A DNA stretch of 64,000 nt from Anaerolineales bacterium. GTDB taxonomy: Bacteria; Chloroflexota; Anaerolineae; Anaerolineales; UBA11579. Below, piece by piece: positions 5,860 through 22,727 of the stretch. The notes beneath the pieces were generated by a model. It saw only the letters and a list, made by a program, of their open reading frames with translations. It had not been told where the DNA came from and searched no databases. The stretch spans positions 228,962-292,961 of the forward strand of contig JAJTXV010000002.1 of assembly GCA_021463845.1 (NCBI GenBank), written 5' to 3'. The stretch's first letter is position 1. Each line of letters begins with the position of its first letter. A program made the position numbers and the translations under genes.

Positions 5860-6543
5860 TTAAATCTCCAGCGAATCTCCGGGCTGCATCACAAACGCCT
5901 TGGCCTCCGTTTCCGCGTTCACCCGCTTGACCCAGGCATGCTCGTCCTGCTTGATCACATCCCAGGTCGAATAGTGATACGGCTGCACGCGCTTGGGGCG
6001 CAGCAGCTTGACCGCCTTCAGCGCATCATCCGGCCCCATCGTGAAGTTATCGCCGATCGGCAGGGCCGCGAACTCCACGCCCTCGTCGCCGATCAACGCC
6101 ATGTCGCCGAACAAGCCAGTATCGCATCCCAAGTAGACCTTCTTGCCCTCCGGCGTGGTCAGCAAAAATCCGCTCGCCGTGCCCCCCGGGAAGCCGTCCG
6201 GAAACCCAGACCCGTGCGCGGCTTGCGTCAGCTTCAAATAGCCAAACGGGTGCGTGAAACCGCCGCCAATATGCTGCCCATGGGTCTTGAAGCCTTTGGC
6301 GGCGTAATAGCGCGCGATCTCATCATTGGCAATGATGGTGGCGCCGGTCCGCTGGGCAATAGGCTCCACATCCCCCGAGTGATCCCAGTGCCCGTGGCTC
6401 ACCAATATATAGTCCGCTGGCACGTCATCCATAGCGATCGAGGCCTGGGCGTTCTCCCTAAAGAACGGATCCACGACCACATGCAGTCCGTTGATCACAA
6501 AGCCACAGGTGGCGTGTCCATACCAAATATAGGTAGAGGTCAT
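5860..6543 (-). CDS. UPF0173-type metal-dependent hydrolase (metallo-beta-lactamase fold)
   Basis: The 227-residue protein contains the metallo-beta-lactamase signature HGHWDHSGD (near residue 52), the following metal His in PYHYSTWD and the early Asp in VVDPFF. Length and motif order fit the UPF0173 (YtkL-like) family, whose physiological substrate is not established. AAGGAG 5 nt upstream of the ATG supports the start, in contrast with the leaderless genes nearby. The 402 nt upstream are non-coding and AT-richer than the genes. Confidence 0.85.
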   Translation of the reverse strand: MTSTYIWYGHATCGFVINGLHVVVDPFFRENAQASIAMDDVPADYILVSHGHWDHSGDVEPIAQRTGATIIANDEIARYYAAKGFKTHGQHIGGGFTHPFGYLKLTQAAHGSGFPDGFPGGTASGFLLTTPEGKKVYLGCDTGLFGDMALIGDEGVEFAALPIGDNFTMGPDDALKAVKLLRPKRVQPYHYSTWDVIKQDEHAWVKRVNAETEAKAFVMQPGDSLEI

Positions 6544-6951
6544 ATATCTCCTTGGAATAAAGGGTAGCTTATTTCTATAAACCCTAACTATCCTTATAGT
6601 TATTGTGTCTATGTATTTAGTATTCGTACTAGGGCCTGTGGATTTGTGGATACCCGTCCAGTTAAGGGGAGTTTGCTGAAGATACGGGAGTTATACAAGA
6701 TTGAGGCGGTGTATATGTGGGTACGTTTATAAAAACTTACCCACGTTCATAAATCTAAACAATTGGGGATAGAACCGCCCTTTTTCGCACTGCGTATGGA
6801 GGAGGACTACTTGTCAGTACATATCCACACAAAGGCCCACAGGTGTCCCCTAATAACTTAGGCAGGTGGTCGCAGGGTTTTCCACAAGCTAGACCCAGGT
6901 TTCACCCGCAGTTCTCCACAGAATAGCCCTGGTTATCCACAGTAGAGATAA
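6544..6951. other. AT-richer non-coding block with DnaA-box-like sites (candidate origin or DnaA-controlled region)
   Basis: About 400 bases with no plausible gene in a GC-rich window. I see a perfect DnaA box TTATCCACA at 6933-6941 and one-mismatch versions at 6912-6920 (TTCTCCACA), 6878-6886 (TTTTCCACA) and 6821-6829 (ATATCCACA) on the plus strand, plus GTATCCACA on the minus strand (6653-6645). An inverted repeat GTGGGTA / TACCCAC (6717-6723, 6738-6744) encloses an A/T-rich 14-nt spacer, and 6565-6625 is strongly A/T-rich. DnaA boxes plus an A/T-rich stretch is the usual oriC layout, but dnaA, dnaN and similar genes are absent here, so this is a candidate only. Confidence 0.45.
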
Positions 6952-6986
6952 AAAACCGCCGTAGACACACTGTCTACGGCGGTTTT
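6952..6986 (-). terminator. Rho-independent terminator of the PadR operon
   Basis: Perfect 16-bp inverted repeat (6952-6967 with 6971-6986, loop CAC) ending in T-runs on both strands. It lies 20 nt beyond the stop of the 58-residue membrane protein gene on the minus strand. Confidence 0.85.
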
Positions 6987-7005
6987 GTGCCTGGTTTGAG
7001 CGAGG

Positions 7006-7182
7006 CTACTTGGACTGCTTGCGGGCACGCGTCACGAGCGTGAACACAGCAGACAGCACAGCATAGATCGTCAGAATGATCCACCAGGCATCCTCATACC
7101 CCATAAGGGACGCAATGATCATGGCCGCGGCCACCACCAGAGCCACCAGCACAGCTCCATAGTCTTTCAGAAATTTACTCAT
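7006..7182 (-). CDS. Small membrane protein, partial paralogue of the upstream gene
   Basis: A 58-residue product (start ATG at 7182, AAAGGA upstream) with two hydrophobic segments. It aligns along its whole length with the C-terminal half of the preceding 134-residue protein: both have E/KFLK.(F/Y)G, TIIASL/MIIASL, GYE(D/N)AWW and VSAVFTL in order. This looks like a tandem partial duplication that kept only the two-helix membrane module. The start overlaps the upstream stop by 4 nt (ATGA), so it is translated as part of the PadR operon. Function unknown. Confidence 0.75.
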   Translation of the reverse strand: MSKFLKDYGAVLVALVVAAAMIIASLMGYEDAWWIILTIYAVLSAVFTLVTRARKQSK

Positions 7183-7583
7183 GGCAGATGTCCTTTCTTT
7201 TGAAGAAAACGATACAGCAGCGTGAATACGGCAGAAACCACCGCATGCACAACCAACATGAACCACCAGGCATTTTCATAACCTCTGAGAGAAGCGATGA
7301 TTGTCACGGTTGCAACCGCCAGCGACCAGAACAGCCCGCCAAATACTTTCAAAAATTCAACCACAGGCAGCTTCTGTTCCTGGAGGATGCCCACGGAAGT
7401 CTCCGTGAACACCCAGGCCGCCAAACCCGGCAAGCTGCGGCCCGCTGCGCTCCGTTCCCTGAGCAGATCGTTGAAAGTCTGCTCCAATCCTTCGCCGAAC
7501 GTCTCCAGATACGGCTTAGGGTATAAGCCGATCAGCGCCTTGTACCATTTGCGATACCGAGCGTGCTCTCGTGTTGCTGTCAT
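7179..7583 (-). CDS. PadR-associated two-helix membrane protein
   Basis: The 134-residue product has a basic, tyrosine-rich N-terminus (HARYRKWYKALIGLYPKPY), a short helical region ending near TETSVGILQEQ, and two C-terminal membrane helices (LFWSLAVATVTIIASL and FMLVVHAVVSAVFTLLYRF). Proteins of this layout are often encoded directly after PadR regulators in Gram-positive and Chloroflexota genomes and are thought to be its regulated membrane partner; no activity is known. It overlaps the padR stop and the downstream start by 4 nt each, so the three genes are a tight operon. Confidence 0.75.
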   Translation of the reverse strand: MTATREHARYRKWYKALIGLYPKPYLETFGEGLEQTFNDLLRERSAAGRSLPGLAAWVFTETSVGILQEQKLPVVEFLKVFGGLFWSLAVATVTIIASLRGYENAWWFMLVVHAVVSAVFTLLYRFLQKKGHLP

Positions 7584-7936
7584 AGGCGGAACGCTTTCGG
7601 CAGCAGCCGCTGCTGCCTGGCCACCGCAACCACCTCGCGGTAGCGCTCCAGCTCGGCGGCCAGCGCTTTCTGGCCCAGCGCGGTGATCTTGTAGTACACG
7701 CGGCGCTCTTCGTCCAGTTCCGGGTCGCGCTTCTTGTCGCTCTTGCTGACCAGCCCTGCAGCCAGCATTCGGTTCAGCGAGCCGTACAGCGTGCCCGGCC
7801 CCATGTTCACCTTGCCCTTTGTATCCTGCTCGACCTGCTTCATGATCCCGTAACCGTGCCGCTCTCTTATGGAGAGCGCCATAAGGATGTGCAAGACCGC
7901 CGGGGTAAGCGGCGAGTTGGCGTCCGTGGTCGTCAT
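7580..7936 (-). CDS. PadR-family transcriptional regulator
   Basis: The 118-residue protein is a winged-helix PadR regulator: PLTPAVLHILMALSIRERHGYG, then GPGTLYGSLNRMLAAGL (recognition helix and turn) and the RRVYYKITALG wing with a C-terminal dimerisation helix. PadR proteins usually repress their own operon and respond to small molecules. I start at the ATG at 7936 and not the upstream ones because a consensus promoter ends 6 nt before it. The operator-like dyad in that promoter suggests autorepression of the padR-membrane-protein operon. Confidence 0.92.
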   Translation of the reverse strand: MTTTDANSPLTPAVLHILMALSIRERHGYGIMKQVEQDTKGKVNMGPGTLYGSLNRMLAAGLVSKSDKKRDPELDEERRVYYKITALGQKALAAELERYREVVAVARQQRLLPKAFRL

Positions 7937-7942
7937 GTTGGC

Positions 7943-7971
7943 ATGATACATCCGCAGCGGATATATGTCAA
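7943..7971 (-). promoter_or_regulatory. padR promoter with embedded operator dyad
   Basis: On the minus strand TTGACA (7971-7966), a 17-nt spacer and TATCAT (7948-7943). The spacer holds the dyad ATCCGC-T-GCGGAT, and a half copy (ATATCCGC) lies just upstream of the -35. The ATG follows the -10 by 6 nt, so the transcript is likely leaderless and a PadR dimer on the dyad would block polymerase. Confidence 0.75.
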
Positions 7972-7984
7972 GTGCGGATATACG

Positions 7985-8016
7985 CAAACAGGACAGCCTC
8001 GAGGCTGTCCTGTTTG
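7985..8016. terminator. Perfect 32-nt palindrome downstream of tRNA-Leu
   Basis: Two 16-nt arms with no loop base between them (centre at 8000/8001), 5 nt beyond the 3' end of the tRNA gene. No long T-run follows on the minus strand, so the termination role is inferred from its position. Confidence 0.6.
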
Positions 8017-8021
8017 CCTTG

Positions 8022-8103
8022 TGCCGAAGGTGGGAATCGAACCCACACTCCCAAGGGAACGCGATTTTGAGTCGCGCGCGTCTGCCAGTTCCGCCACTTC
8101 GGC
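8022..8103 (-). tRNA. tRNA-Leu (CAA)
   Basis: The minus strand gives an 82-nt class II tRNA: acceptor GCCGAAG pairing with CTTCGGC, D-arm with the GGCAGAC segment, anticodon stem CGCGA/TCGCG with loop CTCAAAA (anticodon CAA, reading UUG), a long variable arm (TTCCCTTGGGAG) and a TGTGGGTTCGATTCCCAC T-arm. CCA is not encoded. Confidence 0.97.
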
Positions 8104-8189
8104 TAGATGTGAGCGCAAAGTATAATCACCAGAAAACCAAGGGTCAACAACAAGTTTGTAAAACCTGAACGCGAAGTCACCCTATCTGT

Positions 8190-8227
8190 GGAGTAGCGTC
8201 GCCGAGCGTCAGCTCGGCAGCTACTCC
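8190..8227. repeat. Intergenic two-step hairpin
   Basis: GGAGTAGC (8190-8197) pairs with GCTACTCC (8220-8227), and inside it GCCGAGC (8201-8207) with GCTCGGC (8212-8218). It lies between the divergent tRNA-Leu and ychF. It has no T-tail, so it is more like a REP-type element than a terminator. Confidence 0.55.
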
Positions 8228-8283
8228 AAAAGTTGTACGGGTTTGTGTGTCACCTTGGCTAACTATAAGGACTAGTGCAACGT

Positions 8284-9342
8284 ATGAAGTTAGCAATCAT
8301 CGGCCTGCCGCAAGCCGGCAAGACCACCATCTTCAACGCCCTCACTCGCAGCAACCGCCCGCTCAGCATGAGCGCCGGCCGCATCGAGACCACCACCGCC
8401 GTCGTAGACGTGCCTGATGAGCGCCTCCACAAACTGGCCGCCCTCTTCGCCTCCAAGAAGATCGTCCACGCCCAGATCTCCTTCGCCGATGTGGCCGGCA
8501 TGGGCTCCGCCGACTCCGGCCAGGGCCTCAGTGGCCAGCTGCTCAATGCCCTCAGCGGCATGGACGGCCTGCTCATCATCCTGCGCGCCTTCGAGGATGA
8601 CAGTGTGGCCCACCCCGCCCTCACCGTTGACGCCGCCCGAGACCTGCGCTCCATCGAGGACGAGCTGCTGCTCAATGACCTTATCATCGTCGAGCGCAAG
8701 CTGCAGAAGCTCAAAGAAGAGCGCGGCAAGGGCGGCCGAGACATCGCCGCCCTTGATCGCCAGATCGCCCACTTCGAAAAGCTGCACGCCGCCCTCTCAG
8801 ACAACAAGCCGCTGCGCGTCGCCGGCCTCACCGAAGACGAGCAAACCGCCAGCGCCGGCATCGGCCTGCTGACCCTTAAGCCCATCCTCGCCGTGGTCAA
8901 CCTCGGCGAAGGCCAGGCCCAACCCGCTTTCGACACGCTCTTGCCCGTGCTTGCCTTGCAAGGCAAACTTGAAATGGAACTGGCCCAACTGCCCGCCGAC
9001 GAACAAACCATATTCTTACAAGAATATGGTTTGCAGGAGCCCGGCTCGCTGCGCGTCATCCGCGCCGCCTACGACCTGATGGACACGCAGACCTTCTACA
9101 CCGTCGGCGAGCCCGAGGCCCACGCTTGGATGCTGCGCAAGCACGCCAGCGCCCTGGAGGCCGCCGGTGCCATCCACTCCGATATCGCCCGCGGCTTCAT
9201 CCGCGCCGAAATCGTCTCCGGCGACGAGCTCCTCGAGCTCGGCGGCATGGCCCAGGCTCGCGACAAGGGCCGCCTCCGCCTTGAAGGCAAGGAGTACCCC
9301 ATGCAAGACGGCGACATTATCAACGTTAGGTTTAATGTGTAG
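8284..9342 (+). CDS. ychF: Redox-regulated ATPase / GTP-binding protein YchF
   Basis: YchF (Obg-like ATPase, OLA1 family) is a ribosome-associated P-loop protein. The product starts MKLAIIGLPQAGKTTIFNAL (P-loop G-L-P-Q-A-G-K-T), has the DVAG of switch II (FADVAGMGSADSGQG), a coiled-coil insertion around ERKLQKLKEERGKG, and the C-terminal TGS domain with IRAEIVSGDELLELGG and GDIINVRFNV. The usual NKxE base-recognition motif is replaced by AVVNLGEGQ, compatible with the family's ATP preference. About 352 residues is normal. A GTG at 8275 lies closer to AAGGA, but the family N-terminus favours the ATG at 8284. Confidence 0.93.
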   Translation: MKLAIIGLPQAGKTTIFNALTRSNRPLSMSAGRIETTTAVVDVPDERLHKLAALFASKKIVHAQISFADVAGMGSADSGQGLSGQLLNALSGMDGLLIILRAFEDDSVAHPALTVDAARDLRSIEDELLLNDLIIVERKLQKLKEERGKGGRDIAALDRQIAHFEKLHAALSDNKPLRVAGLTEDEQTASAGIGLLTLKPILAVVNLGEGQAQPAFDTLLPVLALQGKLEMELAQLPADEQTIFLQEYGLQEPGSLRVIRAAYDLMDTQTFYTVGEPEAHAWMLRKHASALEAAGAIHSDIARGFIRAEIVSGDELLELGGMAQARDKGRLRLEGKEYPMQDGDIINVRFNV

Positions 9343-15708: not shown

Positions 15709-16440
15709 CTAATTTTCATATCGACTATCATCTATTTGTTGGTCTCTCCGGCTGATGCGTGGTGTGGCTTCGGTCGGCGCGTCCAACGCGGCCCAGCGTG
15801 CTTCGGCCGCTGCCAGGTCTTCCTTGCTGGCCCGGCGCACCAGTGACCATTTGCCGCAATGCGGGCAGCGGTCAAATTTCTTGGCGCCCATATTGAAACT
15901 AAAGAAGCGCAGCGGGTACGGCAAACCGCACTTGGGGCACACCGCGCCGCCGCTTACACCATACTTGCCGCGCTGCGGCTTTTTGCTGCTCAACATGGCC
16001 GGCACTACCGTCGCCAACAGCGTCACTGCCAACACAACCCCCAGGATGGGGAAGACCAGCTCAACCATCTTGCCGCGGGCCTGCTCGGCCGAAAGAAAAA
16101 TGCGCGTGATCTCATTCGAACGCAGCTGGCTGCCATCGCTTAGATAGCCCAGCGCATACATGGTGCGCTCACCGGGCGCATAGTCCTTGGTGGTGAACTG
16201 CACCCGGAACGGCTCTTCGTCAACGTTGCCGATCAGCTCGCTGTCGACATAAAACTCCACGCGCTGCAGGTTGCTGGGCCCGCTGGCGCGCAGGCTGAAC
16301 AAGCCTTCAATGTCGCTGCCAAAACCAGCGTAGCCAAAGTCTCGGCTCATGCTGAGCGTCAGGCCGGCGTCCTGCGCGTGCGCAGGTATGACGGCGATGA
16401 ATAGGGCGGCGAGAACTACAAATAAAGCAAGTTTTTTCAA
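15709..16440 (-). CDS. Exported-domain membrane protein with cytoplasmic zinc ribbon
   Basis: The 243-residue product has a signal peptide (KKLALFVVLAALFIAVIPAHAQ), an Ig-like extracytoplasmic domain of about 90 residues (VEFYVDSELIGNVDEEPFRVQF, typical of bacterial Ig repeats), one membrane helix (VFPILGVVLAVTLLATVVPAM) and a cytoplasmic four-Cys zinc ribbon CPKCGLPYPLRFFSFN... CPHCGKW, then a charged tail. I know no named family with this order. It begins 4 nt after the ABC permease stop on the same strand, so it is probably the last gene of the GntR-ABC operon and could be an accessory or sensing subunit. Confidence 0.75.
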   Translation of the reverse strand: MKKLALFVVLAALFIAVIPAHAQDAGLTLSMSRDFGYAGFGSDIEGLFSLRASGPSNLQRVEFYVDSELIGNVDEEPFRVQFTTKDYAPGERTMYALGYLSDGSQLRSNEITRIFLSAEQARGKMVELVFPILGVVLAVTLLATVVPAMLSSKKPQRGKYGVSGGAVCPKCGLPYPLRFFSFNMGAKKFDRCPHCGKWSLVRRASKEDLAAAEARWAALDAPTEATPRISRRDQQIDDSRYEN

Positions 16441-16444
16441 TGGA

Positions 16445-17236
16445 TTACCTCCAACGCGTCAGGATCGTCTCGCGTTGAAACAAGCGGACTGCAAAATATA
16501 GTAGCGCAAGATCAATGAACACCAGCGCTCCGGCAATGCTGAGCATCAGCGATTGATTGAGCGCCACGGCCCCAAACATCTGGCCGAGGAAGAGAGCCAT
16601 TACCGGAAGGATCAGCAGCGCCGCCAGCTGCTCCGCGGCACGCGGGTCGTTCACGCGCGAGGAGATCATGATCGCCAGGCTTACCCCGGTCACCGAGACC
16701 AGCGGGCCGACCACAAAGATGCCCAGCAGCCACAGCGGTGACAGCAGGCGCGTCGCCACCGGGCCGCCGGCTATCACGCTGGTGCCGATGGCAAAAATGG
16801 TGAAGCTGGCCAGGCTGGCAAACAGCGCCGGCAGCGCCGCCGCCAGCGCTTTACCGGTCAGCAGCTCAGCCGTGGTGATGGGGGTTGCCAGCAAAGGTTC
16901 CAGGGTGCGTGTGGTCTTTTCGCCCACGATACTGTAGGACGCGATCGTGATGGGGATGATGGCCGGCATTAGCAGGAACAACACAAGGAACTGCTGCAGC
17001 AAAATAAGCTGCGTACACTGCAAGCCCTCCAGCGGGCCGCAGGCAGTTTCGAGCGCGGCCAGCAGCGGCCCAAACTCGGATTGCACTGCGCTTAGGTCGG
17101 CGCCGACGGTGGTGTACAGCAGGCCCAATGGAATGAGCGCAAAGACCAGCGGCATGAACACTACGCTGAAGATCACCAGCTTGTTGCGGAATACCTCCGC
17201 CCATTCCTTGCTGATAAGTACGCCTATCTTTTTCAT
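16445..17236 (-). CDS. ABC-2 type transporter permease (NatB-like)
   Basis: The 263-residue protein has six hydrophobic segments, including VIFSVVFMPLVFALIPLGLLY at the N-terminus and the ABC-2 core AIIPITIASYSIVGEKTTRTLEPLLATPITTAELLTGKALA, the strongly conserved SIVGEKxxxTLExLLxTPxxxxEL signature of NatB/ABC-2 permeases. An extracytoplasmic loop near residues 40-70 has two Cys residues. It overlaps the stop of the upstream CPBP-ATPase gene by 4 nt and is clearly its partner. The substrate is unknown; Na+ export and drug or peptide export are the common roles of this family. Confidence 0.88.
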   Translation of the reverse strand: MKKIGVLISKEWAEVFRNKLVIFSVVFMPLVFALIPLGLLYTTVGADLSAVQSEFGPLLAALETACGPLEGLQCTQLILLQQFLVLFLLMPAIIPITIASYSIVGEKTTRTLEPLLATPITTAELLTGKALAAALPALFASLASFTIFAIGTSVIAGGPVATRLLSPLWLLGIFVVGPLVSVTGVSLAIMISSRVNDPRAAEQLAALLILPVMALFLGQMFGAVALNQSLMLSIAGALVFIDLALLYFAVRLFQRETILTRWR

Positions 17237-19155
17237 GTCGCCGCCTCTGGCTGGGCCTGGGCGCCTAGCAGTTGAAAGTACACGTCTTCCAGGCTCTGGC
17301 GGATCTCGCCTACGAACTGCACGTCAGCGCCTAGCCCAACCAGCTCGCGCAGCAGTTCAGGGTTGTGGGCTTCTGGGTCGTCCAGCTTCACCACGATCTT
17401 GTCGCCGCGCAGATCGGCCTCATGGACATAGCTTTTCTGGCGCAGCGCATTGACAAATGCTTCTTTGGCTGCGGCCAGATGGAAAACCACCGAGCGGCCA
17501 AACAACTTGCGCCGCAAGCTGTTTGGCGTGTCCACTGCCAGCAGCTTGGACTTGAAGACCGCGATACGGTCGCATAGACGGTCGGCCTCGTCGAGGTTGT
17601 GGGTGGTGACAATGATGGTGCGGCCCTCGCCGCGCAGCTGCTCGATAAAATCGCGCACTACTCGCGAAGCCTCGGGGTCCAGGCCGCTGGTCGGCTCATC
17701 CAGAAAGATGACTTTGGGCTCGTGCAGCAGGGCGCGGGCAATGGCCAGCTTCTGGCGCATACCCTTCGAGAAGCCGCCCACAGCTTCGTGGCGGCGGCCC
17801 CACAGGCCCAGCATGCGCAGATAGCGTTCCACCTGACCGGGGATGTTGTCCACTTCGTACATCCTGGCAAAGAAATCCAGGTTGCGCTCGGCACTTAGTT
17901 GCTCGTACATGCCGGGTGTCTCGGTCAGAATGCCGATGTCCTTGCGCAGTTGGGTATTGTCGTCGCCCACGCGGTGGCCGGCCACCCAGGCTTCGCCTTC
18001 GGTGGGCGAGATCAGCGCCGCTAGCATGCGGATGGTGGTGGTCTTGCCGGCCCCGTTAGGGCCGAGCAGACCAAACACTTCACCCACCGGGATCTTGAGG
18101 TCAATATGGTCCACCGCCTCCAGGCTGCCGAAGCGCTTGGTCAAGCCGCTGGCAATGATCGCATCGGCGCTGGGCGGCGTGGCCGGGCCTGCAGACGGGC
18201 CGGATGTTTCACGTGAAACATCGCTGGTCGTTCCGCCCACCTCGCCATTCTTCCACAGCAGATAGGCTGCCAGCAGGGCGCTGGGTAGGCCACCGATCAG
18301 GCCGGTCGGCAGCGGCCCCAGCAGGGAGTTCAGGCCGGGAGCATCCAGATGGGTCATGTAAATGCCCACGCCGGCGATGGCGTTGATGCTGCCGTGGGCG
18401 ATGACCGCCGGCCACACACTGCCGCCGCGCAAGGTGAGCCAGCCGATGATGACCGCCAGCGGGATGGTGAACCACACCATCGCCAGAATACCGGTCCAGG
18501 GCTCGCCCCAATAGCCGAAGCCGTAGTTGTGACCCATGGCAATGATCGGCGCGTGCCACAAACCCCAGATGACGCCGACCGCCAGCATGGCCTTGCGGAA
18601 ACCGAGTGGCATCAGCTTGGGCTGCAGATAGGCCCGCCAGCCAAACTCTTCGCCGAAGGTAAAGATGCCGTTGATGATCGGCCCAAGCAATACGCCTTGC
18701 CCGATCTGGATCAGCATCACTGTCCAAACATCAAAGGGCAATTCCTGCCCCGCCATAGCGGCCGCATTGTCCAGTACGGTTTGCAGCGGGGTCAGGTTGC
18801 TGTCAAAGTGGCTGGGGTAAATGGCAAAGTACACCACCAAGCCCAACAAGGTCAGGATCGGCGGCAGCACCCAGGCCAGGACCCAGCTCATCCAGTTGCG
18901 GCCGGCCTGCGGGCGCAGCCACATGTCCTTCCAGCCTTCGCGCGTGATCACGCGGGTCAGCAGGTGCGCAACCGCGGGCGCCCACATACAGCCCAGCGCC
19001 AGCAGCGCGGTGGCCAACGTGATGCCAGTGCCCGGCAGGATCTCGGGGCTGTTGACCAGGCCACCGTTGAGATAGATCACGCCCGCGATCGCCCAACAAA
19101 GGCCAAAGGCCAGGCCTACAAAGATCCAAATACGTCGTGTGTCTAGAGTGTTCAT
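17233..19155 (-). CDS. Fusion of CPBP intramembrane metalloprotease and ABC transporter ATPase
   Basis: The 640-residue protein joins two domains. Residues about 1-310 are a multi-span CPBP (CAAX protease and bacteriocin-processing) domain with all three motifs intact: EEFGWRAYLQ (EExxxR), VIWGLWHAP (FxxxH type) and VIAHGSINA (HxxxN). A polar linker of about 35 residues follows. Residues about 345-640 are an ABC ATPase: Walker A LLGPNGAGKTTT, signature GFSKGMRQKLAIARAL, Walker B VIFLDEPTSGLDPEASR and switch His in IIVTTHNLDEADRLCDR. The start at 19155 has GGAG 5 nt upstream. A perfect parS sequence encodes part of the linker (DVSRET). The ATPase would power the permease encoded next; the fused protease may act on a peptide handled by the exporter, but that is inference. 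Confidence 0.88.
   Translation of the reverse strand: MNTLDTRRIWIFVGLAFGLCWAIAGVIYLNGGLVNSPEILPGTGITLATALLALGCMWAPAVAHLLTRVITREGWKDMWLRPQAGRNWMSWVLAWVLPPILTLLGLVVYFAIYPSHFDSNLTPLQTVLDNAAAMAGQELPFDVWTVMLIQIGQGVLLGPIINGIFTFGEEFGWRAYLQPKLMPLGFRKAMLAVGVIWGLWHAPIIAMGHNYGFGYWGEPWTGILAMVWFTIPLAVIIGWLTLRGGSVWPAVIAHGSINAIAGVGIYMTHLDAPGLNSLLGPLPTGLIGGLPSALLAAYLLWKNGEVGGTTSDVSRETSGPSAGPATPPSADAIIASGLTKRFGSLEAVDHIDLKIPVGEVFGLLGPNGAGKTTTIRMLAALISPTEGEAWVAGHRVGDDNTQLRKDIGILTETPGMYEQLSAERNLDFFARMYEVDNIPGQVERYLRMLGLWGRRHEAVGGFSKGMRQKLAIARALLHEPKVIFLDEPTSGLDPEASRVVRDFIEQLRGEGRTIIVTTHNLDEADRLCDRIAVFKSKLLAVDTPNSLRRKLFGRSVVFHLAAAKEAFVNALRQKSYVHEADLRGDKIVVKLDDPEAHNPELLRELVGLGADVQFVGEIRQSLEDVYFQLLGAQAQPEAAT
18205..18220. 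promoter_or_regulatory. parS-like site (perfect consensus), inside a coding sequence
   Basis: TGTTTCACGTGAAACA, identical to the 16-bp palindromic consensus bound by chromosomal ParB. It lies in the linker-coding part of the CPBP-ATPase gene. Confidence 0.8.
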
Positions 19156-19165
19156 GCTGCTCCTA

Positions 19166-19181
19166 TGTTTCACGTGAAACT
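19166..19181. promoter_or_regulatory. Second parS-like site (15 of 16 bases)
   Basis: TGTTTCACGTGAAACT in the 30-nt gap between two genes of the ABC operon, 961 bp from the perfect site and also palindromic over its central 14 bases. Confidence 0.75.
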
Positions 19182-19185
19182 ATCT

Positions 19186-19581
19186 TCAGTTTATAAAGTA
19201 CACCAGCCCGCCGATGATCACAGCGCATAACAGCAGCGTGCCGGTGACGATGTAGATCGCAAAGCGCCCATCACTGATCCCGTATTGCGTGCGGTAGGGG
19301 TCTGTGCCTGCGCCGGCGCCAGTGTTGACGCGTGACTTGGCGCCGCGCGGTCGCTTGAGACGGATGCGCGCGTCGTCAAACTTCTCCACCAGCTGCCAGC
19401 CATGCACTGACTCTTCTTCCAGCGCCTTGGCCAGCGTTTCCGGTGACCGGAAACCTGATATGGCCGAGCGCAAGATCTTGAACTCATAGTTGTTCAGGTC
19501 ATCGTGCGTGTAGTTGGTCATCTCTTCCTCCTCTTCCATCATTGCTTGCAATGCGGCTTGTGCTGCTCCAGCGAAAGCCAT
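19186..19581 (-). CDS. Small protein with C-terminal membrane helix, GntR-ABC operon
   Basis: The 131-residue product (ATG at 19581, AAGGAGG 5 nt upstream) has an acidic N-terminal stretch (MMEEEEEMTNYTHDDL), a folded part YEFKILRSAISGFRSPETLAKALEEESVHGWQLVEKFDDARIRLKR, and one C-terminal helix YIVTGTLLLCAVIIGGLVYFIN. The central part resembles small DUF4177-like domains (E-x-K-I-L-R...GWQLVEKF), which is a tentative link. It lies between the GntR regulator (34 nt upstream) and the CPBP-ATPase gene, so it likely belongs to the same operon. Confidence 0.75.
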   Translation of the reverse strand: MAFAGAAQAALQAMMEEEEEMTNYTHDDLNNYEFKILRSAISGFRSPETLAKALEEESVHGWQLVEKFDDARIRLKRPRGAKSRVNTGAGAGTDPYRTQYGISDGRFAIYIVTGTLLLCAVIIGGLVYFIN

Positions 19582-19615: not shown

Positions 19616-20020
19616 TTATCTTTTGCTCGTTTCCCAGGCCGCGATCTTTTCATCCATCAGCTTGCGCAGCTCGGCGGGCTCAAAGCCCAGCTTCTCCGCT
19701 TCTTCCACCAAGTGTTTGCCCAGCACGCCAAGCTGTTGCTTGCGCAGGCGCTGCAGGTCTTTGCCCGTCGGGGCATCGAGGATGAAGGTGCCGCGGCCAT
19801 GTTGGGTAGAGATGATGCCCTTTTCATCCAGCAGGCGATAGGCGCGCGCCACGGTGTTGAAGTTGATCTGCAGATCGGCCGCCAACTGGCGCACAGTTGG
19901 CAGCTGGTCACCCGGCTTAAGCTCGCCGTTGGCGATCGCCAGCCGGATCTGATCCATGATCTGCAGATAGGCGGGGGTATGGATGGTAAGGTCCACATGG
20001 AGTCTTGAAAGTGGGCTCAT
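19616..20020 (-). CDS. GntR-family regulator, YtrA subfamily
   Basis: The 134-residue protein has the GntR winged helix at its N-terminus (AYLQIMDQIRLAIANGELKPGDQLPTVRQLAADLQINFNTVARAYRLLDEKGIISTQHGRGTF) and only a short helical tail of about 45 residues, which is the YtrA type that controls ABC transporter operons. It heads the operon with the membrane protein, CPBP-ATPase, permease and zinc-ribbon genes, so it probably represses them and itself. I start at the ATG at 20020 because the family motif begins right after and a promoter lies 35 nt upstream. Confidence 0.92.
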   Translation of the reverse strand: MSPLSRLHVDLTIHTPAYLQIMDQIRLAIANGELKPGDQLPTVRQLAADLQINFNTVARAYRLLDEKGIISTQHGRGTFILDAPTGKDLQRLRKQQLGVLGKHLVEEAEKLGFEPAELRKLMDEKIAAWETSKR

Positions 20021-20239: not shown

Positions 20240-21274
20240 ATGGATAAGAAAACTTTGCTCAGCCAGACCATTGAGCACATCGACATCAAGTCGTTTGACC
20301 CCACCCCCCTGGTGGACCAGTACGAGCGCATGGCATTTCAGGCGCGTAATCTAGCTCGGGCGGCTCGCATTTACGACAACATGTTGGCCGATACTGAGTG
20401 CGCGGTGATCCTGTGCCTTGCCGGCTCCCTGGTCAGCGCTGGGCTCAAGCGGGTGATCTATGACCTGGTGGATAACCACATGGTGGATGCGATCGTCTCC
20501 ACCGGCGCCAACGTGGTCGACCAGGACTTCTTTGAAGGCCTGGGCTTCAAGCACTACATGGGCGACCCCAAGTCAGATGATGATGCGCTGATGAACCTGC
20601 GCATTGACCGCATCTACGACACCTACATTGACGAAGACGAACTGCGCATCTGTGATGACACCATCAAGCAGATCGCCGACAGCCTGCCGCCCCACCCCTA
20701 CTCCTCGCGTGAGTTCATCTGGCACATGGGCAAATATCTTGTCGACAACGGCAAGGGTGAAGGCTGCTTCGTACGCCGCGCCTACGAGGTCGGCGTGCCC
20801 ATCTTCGTTCCGGCGTTCTCAGACTCCAGCGCCGGCTTCGGCCTGGTGGACCACCAATACCGCGCCACCGGCGGTGTGGTCTCCATTGACTCCGCCAAAG
20901 ACTTCCTGGAACTGACCAAGATCAAGATCGCCGCTGGCACCACCGGCCTGCTCATGATCGGCGGCGGCGTGCCCAAGAATTTTGCCCAGGACATTACCGT
21001 GGCCGCCGAGATCCTCGAAGGCGAAGCTGACATGCACAAGTACGCCATCCAGATCACCGTCGCCGACGAGCGTGACGGCGGCCTGTCCGGCTCCACCCTG
21101 CAGGAGGCCCACTCCTGGGGCAAGGTGGAGCAGGAGAGCGAGCAGATGGTGTTCGCCGAGGCCACCCTGGCCATGCCGCTCATTGCTGGCTACGCCTATC
21201 ACAAGGGCAGCTGGAAGAAGCGCCGCCACAAAGACTTCAACGCCGTGCTCGATAAGAGCGCTCAGGCCGCCTGA
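20240..21274 (+). CDS. Deoxyhypusine-synthase-like enzyme (probable polyamine aminobutyltransferase)
   Basis: The 344-residue protein belongs to the deoxyhypusine synthase family. It has the NAD-binding blocks ILCLAGSLVSAGLKRVIYDLVDN, VSTGANVVDQDFFEGLG and TTGLLMIGGGVPKNFAQD, and the catalytic Lys in HSWGKVEQ (Lys295), the residue that forms the imine with the aminobutyl group in eukaryotic DHS. Bacteria lack eIF5A, so the likely role is transfer of an aminobutyl group to a small amine, for example homospermidine synthesis from putrescine, as proposed for bacterial DHS homologues. It is followed within 21 nt by pyruvoyl arginine decarboxylase and agmatinase genes, which would supply putrescine. 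The transcript appears to be leaderless. Confidence 0.9.
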   Translation: MDKKTLLSQTIEHIDIKSFDPTPLVDQYERMAFQARNLARAARIYDNMLADTECAVILCLAGSLVSAGLKRVIYDLVDNHMVDAIVSTGANVVDQDFFEGLGFKHYMGDPKSDDDALMNLRIDRIYDTYIDEDELRICDDTIKQIADSLPPHPYSSREFIWHMGKYLVDNGKGEGCFVRRAYEVGVPIFVPAFSDSSAGFGLVDHQYRATGGVVSIDSAKDFLELTKIKIAAGTTGLLMIGGGVPKNFAQDITVAAEILEGEADMHKYAIQITVADERDGGLSGSTLQEAHSWGKVEQESEQMVFAEATLAMPLIAGYAYHKGSWKKRRHKDFNAVLDKSAQAA

Positions 21275-21295
21275 CCCGCGCCACAAGGAGACTAC

Positions 21296-21847
21296 ATGAT
21301 CCCGAACAAGATTTTCTTCACCAAGGGCGTAGGTGTGCACAAGGACCGCCTGGCTTCCTTTGAAGCCGCGCTGCGCAGCGCCAAGATCGAGAAATTCAAC
21401 CTGGTCTACGTATCCAGCATCTTTCCGCCCAACTGCAAGATGGTCTCGCCGGACGAGGGCCTCAAGCATCTCTCGCCCGGCGAAGTCGTGTTCTGCGTGA
21501 TGGCCCGCAGCGACACCAACGAGCCGAACCGCCTGGTGTCCTCTGCCATCGGTGTCGCCCTGCCGCAAGACACCACCCGCTATGGCTACCTGTCTGAGCA
21601 CCATGCCCACGGTGAGACCGGCGAAAAAAGCGGTGAGTACGCCGAAGACCTGGCCGCCACAATGCTGGCCACTACGATGGGCCTCGAATTTGACCCGGAT
21701 ATGGCCTGGGATGAGCGCAAGCAGATCTACGATGCCAACCCGCACATCTTCAAAACCCGCCACTATGTGCAGTCTGCCGAGGGCAACAAAAATGGGCTTT
21801 GGACCACGGTGCTGGCTGCTGCCGTGCTGATCCGTTCGGAAGACTGA
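21296..21847 (+). CDS. Pyruvoyl-dependent arginine decarboxylase
   Basis: The 183-residue proenzyme converts arginine to agmatine after self-cleavage at a Ser-Ser bond. [11 protein letters not shown] places this pair at residues 40-41, so Ser41 would become the pyruvoyl group. GHxxxRA-like surroundings, [26 protein letters not shown], and [24 protein letters not shown] are typical of PvlArgDC. AAGGAG stands 6 nt before the ATG. It is the middle gene of the polyamine cluster; the gap to the agmatinase gene is 10 nt. Confidence 0.94.
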
Positions 21848-21857
21848 TCCGCGGCAC

Positions 21858-22727
21858 ATGGCTGGCACCGGCACCCATACCCCGCCCTATAACTTCGGCG
21901 GCCTGCCTGACGAGTTCACCGCCTATGACTCCGCCAAGGTGGCGGTGGTGCCGGTGCCTTTTGACCTGACCACCTCGTGGATGCCTGGCACCGCCAAAGG
22001 CCCGCGCGCCCTCATCGAGGCCTCGGGTTACCTCGAGCTCTACGATATTGAGACCGATAGCGAGCCTTACGAGCACGGCATCTTCACCGATCAGGCCGTA
22101 ACTGCCGACGACACACTGGCGCTGAATGACAACGTGTACGCGCGCGTCAGACAGCATATCGAGGCCGGCAAGTTCGTCGTCACTTTGGGCGGCGAGCACT
22201 CCATCGCCTACGGGGCGGCCAAGGCCCACATCGAGGCCTACGACCAGCTCAGCATCCTGCACTTCGATGCCCACACCGACCGCCGCGAGGAGTTCGAGGG
22301 CGATAGGTTCAGCCACGCCTGTACGCTGCGCCGCATCTCTGAGCTCAACGATGACATCATTTCGGTGGGCATCCGCAGCCTGGATAGCGAAGAGCTGCAA
22401 TACCTTGACCGCGGCAAGGTCTTCTTTGCCGAAAACATCTACAACTCACAGGCATGGATCGACAAGATGGTTGGCTTACTCAAGCCCAACGTCTACATCA
22501 CCTTTGATCTCGACGTGTTCGACCCTGCCATCATGCCCTCCACCGGCACGCCGGAGCCGGGCGGCCTGCACTGGTATCCGGTCCTCGAGGCGCTGCGCGC
22601 TGTAAGCCGCAGACGCAACATCGTGGGCTGTGATGTGGTGGAGCTCAGCCCCAATGACGAGAATAAAGGGCCTGACTTTCTGGCCGCCAAGCTGATCTAC
22701 AAGCTGCTTGCATATAAATTCGCCTAA
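21858..22727 (+). CDS. speB: Agmatinase
   Basis: The 289-residue ureohydrolase would cleave agmatine to putrescine and urea. The Mn-binding motifs are all present: GGEHS (near residue 114), FDAHTDRR (about 134) and ITFDLDVFDPAIMP (about 215), followed by GGLHWYPVLEAL and VVELSPNDE. Length is normal for bacterial agmatinase. The N-terminal PPYNFGGLPDEFTAYDSAKVAVVPVPFD also fits. With the two preceding genes it forms an arginine-agmatine-putrescine route feeding the DHS-like enzyme. No strong ribosome site precedes the ATG; coupling to the upstream gene is likely. Confidence 0.95.
   Translation: MAGTGTHTPPYNFGGLPDEFTAYDSAKVAVVPVPFDLTTSWMPGTAKGPRALIEASGYLELYDIETDSEPYEHGIFTDQAVTADDTLALNDNVYARVRQHIEAGKFVVTLGGEHSIAYGAAKAHIEAYDQLSILHFDAHTDRREEFEGDRFSHACTLRRISELNDDIISVGIRSLDSEELQYLDRGKVFFAENIYNSQAWIDKMVGLLKPNVYITFDLDVFDPAIMPSTGTPEPGGLHWYPVLEALRAVSRRRNIVGCDVVELSPNDENKGPDFLAAKLIYKLLAYKFA

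Follow-up and report, generated by a model that had tools for sequence, protein, structure and literature searches.

The two palindromic 16-mers which are located inside and directly in front of a gene for a CPBP protease-ABC ATPase fusion protein are very probably the parS sites of the chromosome, i.e., the places where ParB would nucleate for segregation of the origin region. This assignment, which had also been made in the initial annotation of the DNA, follows from the identity of the sites, their rarity, the presence of parAB elsewhere in the genome, a cluster of DnaA boxes nearby and conservation in 22 relatives, all of which agree. The function of the sites would be an ordinary one of known kind; the new details are a protein linker made from parS and the remote positions of parAB and dnaA. 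The DNA analysed (the window) comprised 64,000 nucleotides and corresponds to C12:228962-292961 of a genome in 20 contigs. The two sites are as follows:

18205-18220, no strand assigned: parS site 1, TGTTTCACGTGAAACA, a perfect 16-bp palindrome with 0 mismatches, encoding VSRET within the linker of the fusion protein
19166-19181, no strand assigned: parS site 2, TGTTTCACGTGAAACT, with 1 mismatch at the final base, located within the 5' leader of the fusion gene

Site 2 directly precedes the ribosome-binding site and ATG of the fusion gene. The genes and domains of the host operon were obtained from Pfam searches and synteny:

15709-16440, minus strand: conserved protein of the operon, containing a Big_7 domain and a stretch similar to a zinc ribbon (Pfam search; synteny)
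16445-17236, minus strand: ABC-2 permease in the same operon as the fusion gene (PF12679; synteny)
17233-19155, minus strand: fusion of a CPBP (Rce1-like) intramembrane protease and an ABC ATPase, 640 aa, with a continuous frame in 12 genomes
17686-18111, minus strand: ABC_tran domain of the fusion protein (Pfam PF00005, aa 349-490)
18376-18666, minus strand: CPBP/Rce1-like domain of the fusion protein (Pfam PF02517, aa 164-260)
19186-19545, minus strand: conserved small operon protein (synteny; no match to a Pfam family)
19616-20020, minus strand: GntR-family regulator heading the operon (PF00392; synteny)

Adjoining genes at 20240-22727, named by eye as deoxyhypusine-synthase-like, arginine-decarboxylase-like and agmatinase-like, form a probable polyamine cluster.

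Both sites were recovered with the positions and mismatches reported initially. A scan of the window with up to three mismatches to the parS 16-mer yielded these two matches, against 0.12 expected, and the scan of all 20 contigs of the genome, 2.33 Mb in total, with up to one mismatch, which had been proposed as a check for 16-mers scattered at random, gave sites 1 and 2 only, both in the window. The reversed pattern, used as a control, gave 0 matches in the whole genome. From the base composition of the region, the number of occurrences expected in 2.33 Mb is 0.00015 for an exact match and 0.008 for one mismatch (about 0.01 in total). Given this number and the fact that 22 relatives carry a pair in the same operon, it is vanishingly improbable that both sites are chance matches; conservation refutes this explanation. 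A place with two mismatches, C12:133823, which is 113 kb from the pair, was treated as chance. The palindrome matches the 16-bp parS consensus, is conserved beyond its flanking sequence, and is present in few copies (two), which lie within the 20% of the chromosome nearest to the origin if oriC is assigned as described below.

The cognate ParB and ParA are encoded in the genome. The statement that the window lacks parAB was correct, and no ParB-family match was obtained on its contig; an intact parA-parB operon is present on another contig, C14. A parB homologue, on whose existence the initial annotation had made its interpretation dependent, is therefore available. The ParA, the gene of which adjoins parB, showed the deviant Walker motif KGGVGKTT when read from the sequence. 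The ParB contains the domains ParB_N, HTH_ParB and ParB_C, and the nearest solved chains are those of Spo0J/ParB, with Thermus Spo0J being closest. Counted from the GKSR motif, the equivalents of residues 173, 179, 184 and 201 are R, T, E and G, respectively. The residues for parS-type specificity (R173, T179, G201) are present, of which R173 and G201 are stated to be absolutely conserved among ParB proteins (PMC7383237); position 162 deviates, with H in place of the usual Q. The Noc/NBS system of nucleoid occlusion is similar, since there related 16-bp palindromes are bound by a ParB paralogue, but the sequence found here is parS and not NBS, and the ParB possesses R173/G201 versus Q/R in Noc (PMC7383237). 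A gene for an SMC-hinge protein is also present in the genome. Two further ParB-family proteins, encoded close together at C1:456287 and C1:458068 of G000 (L005, L006), were set aside as likely element-borne; one of them has about 625 aa, and an integrated element is possible.

A position of parAB near oriC is usual, but it does not define the parS sites themselves. Such a position was not found in two single-contig relatives (G005, G007), where parAB is unusually remote: its distance from dnaA is about 380-400 kb, in the direction leading away from parS, and that from parS is about 480-520 kb, which is about one fifth of the chromosome of 2.24 Mb.

Exactly two parS sites with up to one mismatch were found in 21 of 23 relatives of the same family; G017, with a second site at two mismatches, brings the number of genomes with a pair to 22, and in these the pair is always in one operon. 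The congener G006 has no sites, but was rejected as a counterexample, since it lacks the fusion gene and its genome is 68% complete. In most genera the sites are 46-117 bp apart, just upstream of genes for YhfC, an ABC protein and a permease. In 12 genomes from three genera the distance is about 925-970 bp; the CPBP domain is located between the sites and is fused in frame to the ATPase, and a YhfC gene is absent. A maximum-likelihood tree of ATPase and permease placed the 12 fusion genomes on one branch with a support of 100/100, so that the fusion had a single origin. YhfC is present in G027 and G030, which belong to other families, and the fusion is therefore the derived state. The simplest history, with the order of events being conjectural, would be insertion of CPBP between the parS sites, loss of YhfC and fusion to the ATPase. 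A small membrane-protein gene is situated between the two sites in G033 (L088:8609-9314), independently of the CPBP case; thus, genes came and went at this place more than once. With respect to gene content, the host operon resembles operons of YhfC or CPBP proteases with ABC exporters and GntR; the difference is that in the present case a single polypeptide contains both CPBP and ATPase, joined by a linker that is encoded by a parS site.

The location of both sites in a GntR-headed operon, which was observed in nearly all family members with a contig covering the operon, would also be expected if the palindromes were operators of this regulator and not parS. This explanation is highly unlikely, since in other families the 16-mer occurs away from the host operon (G029, G031, G032, G034, G038), and the orthologous ABC gene away from a parS site (G029, G032, G036, G038). 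The palindrome is not tied to the operon and promoter of the regulator; the sequence is the universal parS, and the sites are inside the operon instead of at the GntR promoter. Points against the parS assignment are that five relatives of the order possess ParB and have no parS at up to one mismatch, the residue H at position 162 of ParB, the remote parAB, and the position of the DnaA boxes in G016 (see below).

Another possibility is a second role of the parS sites, with ParB occupancy regulating the exporter/protease operon. The association with the operon is maintained throughout family f1 and also in f8, and a partial GntR-SPFH-parS arrangement was found in f5, f11, f13 and f14; furthermore, P. 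aeruginosa ParB is reported to repress promoters adjoining parS3 and parS4 (PMC5521831). On the other hand, the order includes genomes without this association, parS may stay in place merely because it is hard to move, and regulation by ParB is known for few species and genes (review PMC7022226), so that a second role appears unlikely on balance. A specific form, in which ParB over the GntR-SPFH-protease-ABC operon would couple expression of the membrane protease and exporter to origin segregation, is rather doubtful. If such double duty existed, the parS inside the fusion gene would be under selection for regulation instead of being just tolerated.

That site 1 encodes part of the linker between CPBP and ATPase, as had been stated, is evident from the reading frame, which gives DVSRET. 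Intragenic parS sites are common, e.g., 9 of the 10 sites in P. aeruginosa PAO1 (PMC4368675). For an analysis of codons, the 12 fusion genes were aligned, and columns with a fully conserved residue, M and W excluded, were considered (n = 241). Ten columns were identical in their codons, four of which are V-S-R-E of the linker, with six among the other 237; nowhere else in the fusion gene do two or more such columns directly follow one another. The codons GTT TCA CGT GAA are invariant in 12 of 12 genes from three genera, and three of them are rare in the fusion genes (GTT, TCA and CGT with fractions of 0.108, 0.088 and 0.106, respectively, of the codons for their amino acids); the product of usage for the four codons is 0.00045. 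The adjoining linker residues vary freely, and none is fixed outside VSRET.

Identity of VSRET in 12 of 12 proteins could also mean that the peptide is kept, for example as a cleavage site, with the DNA palindrome as a by-product. This is extremely improbable in view of the identity of the four codons, of which three are rare, the lack of any further fixed linker residue, and the occurrence of the same 16-mer in untranslated form at site 2 and upstream of YhfC in other genera. To judge from the codons, conservation of the linker is due to selection on DNA and not on the peptide. The initial annotation had ascribed a constraint on these codons to ParB binding; the constraint at the DNA level is supported by the codon identity, and ParB would be its presumed cause. 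The linker is thus a natural example of a DNA-binding site which was absorbed into a protein and is frozen at the codon level in three genera.

According to current knowledge, ParB nucleates at parS near oriC and spreads, and ParA moves the complex; a single parS near oriC suffices in the species studied (review PMC7022226). By analogy, the ParB encoded together with ParA on the other contig would nucleate at the two palindromes, load as CTP-dependent clamps and spread to adjoining DNA; ParA could then separate the origin regions, and ParB may also load SMC. The common ancestor of the fusion clade would have gained a CPBP gene between the sites, which replaced the YhfC gene and was fused to the ATPase. 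The downstream parS would thereby have become translated as a tolerated linker, VSRET, with its DNA kept fixed by selection.

The chromosomal ParABS systems of B. subtilis (Spo0J/parS), C. crescentus and P. aeruginosa are similar in having the identical 16-bp sequence, a ParA/ParB pair in the genome and parS near oriC, which is here a probable one. They differ from the present case, where only two sites exist, parAB and dnaA are far from parS and oriC, and a fusion gene specific to the lineage has one of the sites as its linker. A literature search yielded neither a paper on a CPBP-ATPase fusion with a parS linker nor a study of parS in Chloroflexi. New aspects would be the arrangement in the ancestor, the fact that the fusion arose once, its evolutionary history, and the separation of oriC and parS from dnaA and parAB.

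The probable origin of replication was located by its DnaA boxes:

6645-6941, no strand assigned: candidate oriC with five DnaA boxes; the surrounding intergenic stretch (6544-7178) is AT-richer

This cluster is 11.3 kb from parS site 1 and was the single one in the genome when a pattern of three boxes was searched. The pattern matched in 17 of 41 genomes, nearly always at one place each, and its reversed control gave 0 matches in 41 of 41 genomes. In five congeners with the same genes flanking the cluster, the boxes are 9.5-12.3 kb from parS; the distance is 18.7 kb in G004, 23-24 kb in G009 and G010, and 29 kb in G033, which belongs to another family. G003 has weak boxes only, at a similar distance from parS, and in G016 cluster and parS are on separate contigs, with a distance of at least about 360 kb between them. 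The gene dnaA is 117 kb from the parS sites in this genome and about 100-165 kb in those congeners where a single contig carries both; in G033 it is far from parS and from the DnaA boxes. It was therefore dropped as a marker of the origin. The GC skew has a local minimum in the window at about 39-48 kb. A plot of skew versus sites, as had been suggested, was only weakly informative: skew values sampled from a relative with a complete genome gave a multi-lobed curve, with one of two near-equal minima close to the candidate oriC. This is compatible with oriC near parS, but was not used as proof, and the oriC assignment is derived from the DnaA boxes. A centromere and, probably, a replication origin are thus located for an uncultured Anaerolineales lineage with oriC far from dnaA and parAB. 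Since oriC and parS can be located by sequence, segregation in Anaerolineales should become testable by assays with heterologous ParB.

The origin may have moved within the family. In other genera (L202, L204, L205, L206, L208, L213) the DnaA-box cluster adjoins a DUF92 gene; in this genus it is situated between genes for an MBL-fold protein and a YchF-like GTPase (5860-9342 of the window), with DUF92 about 112 kb away.
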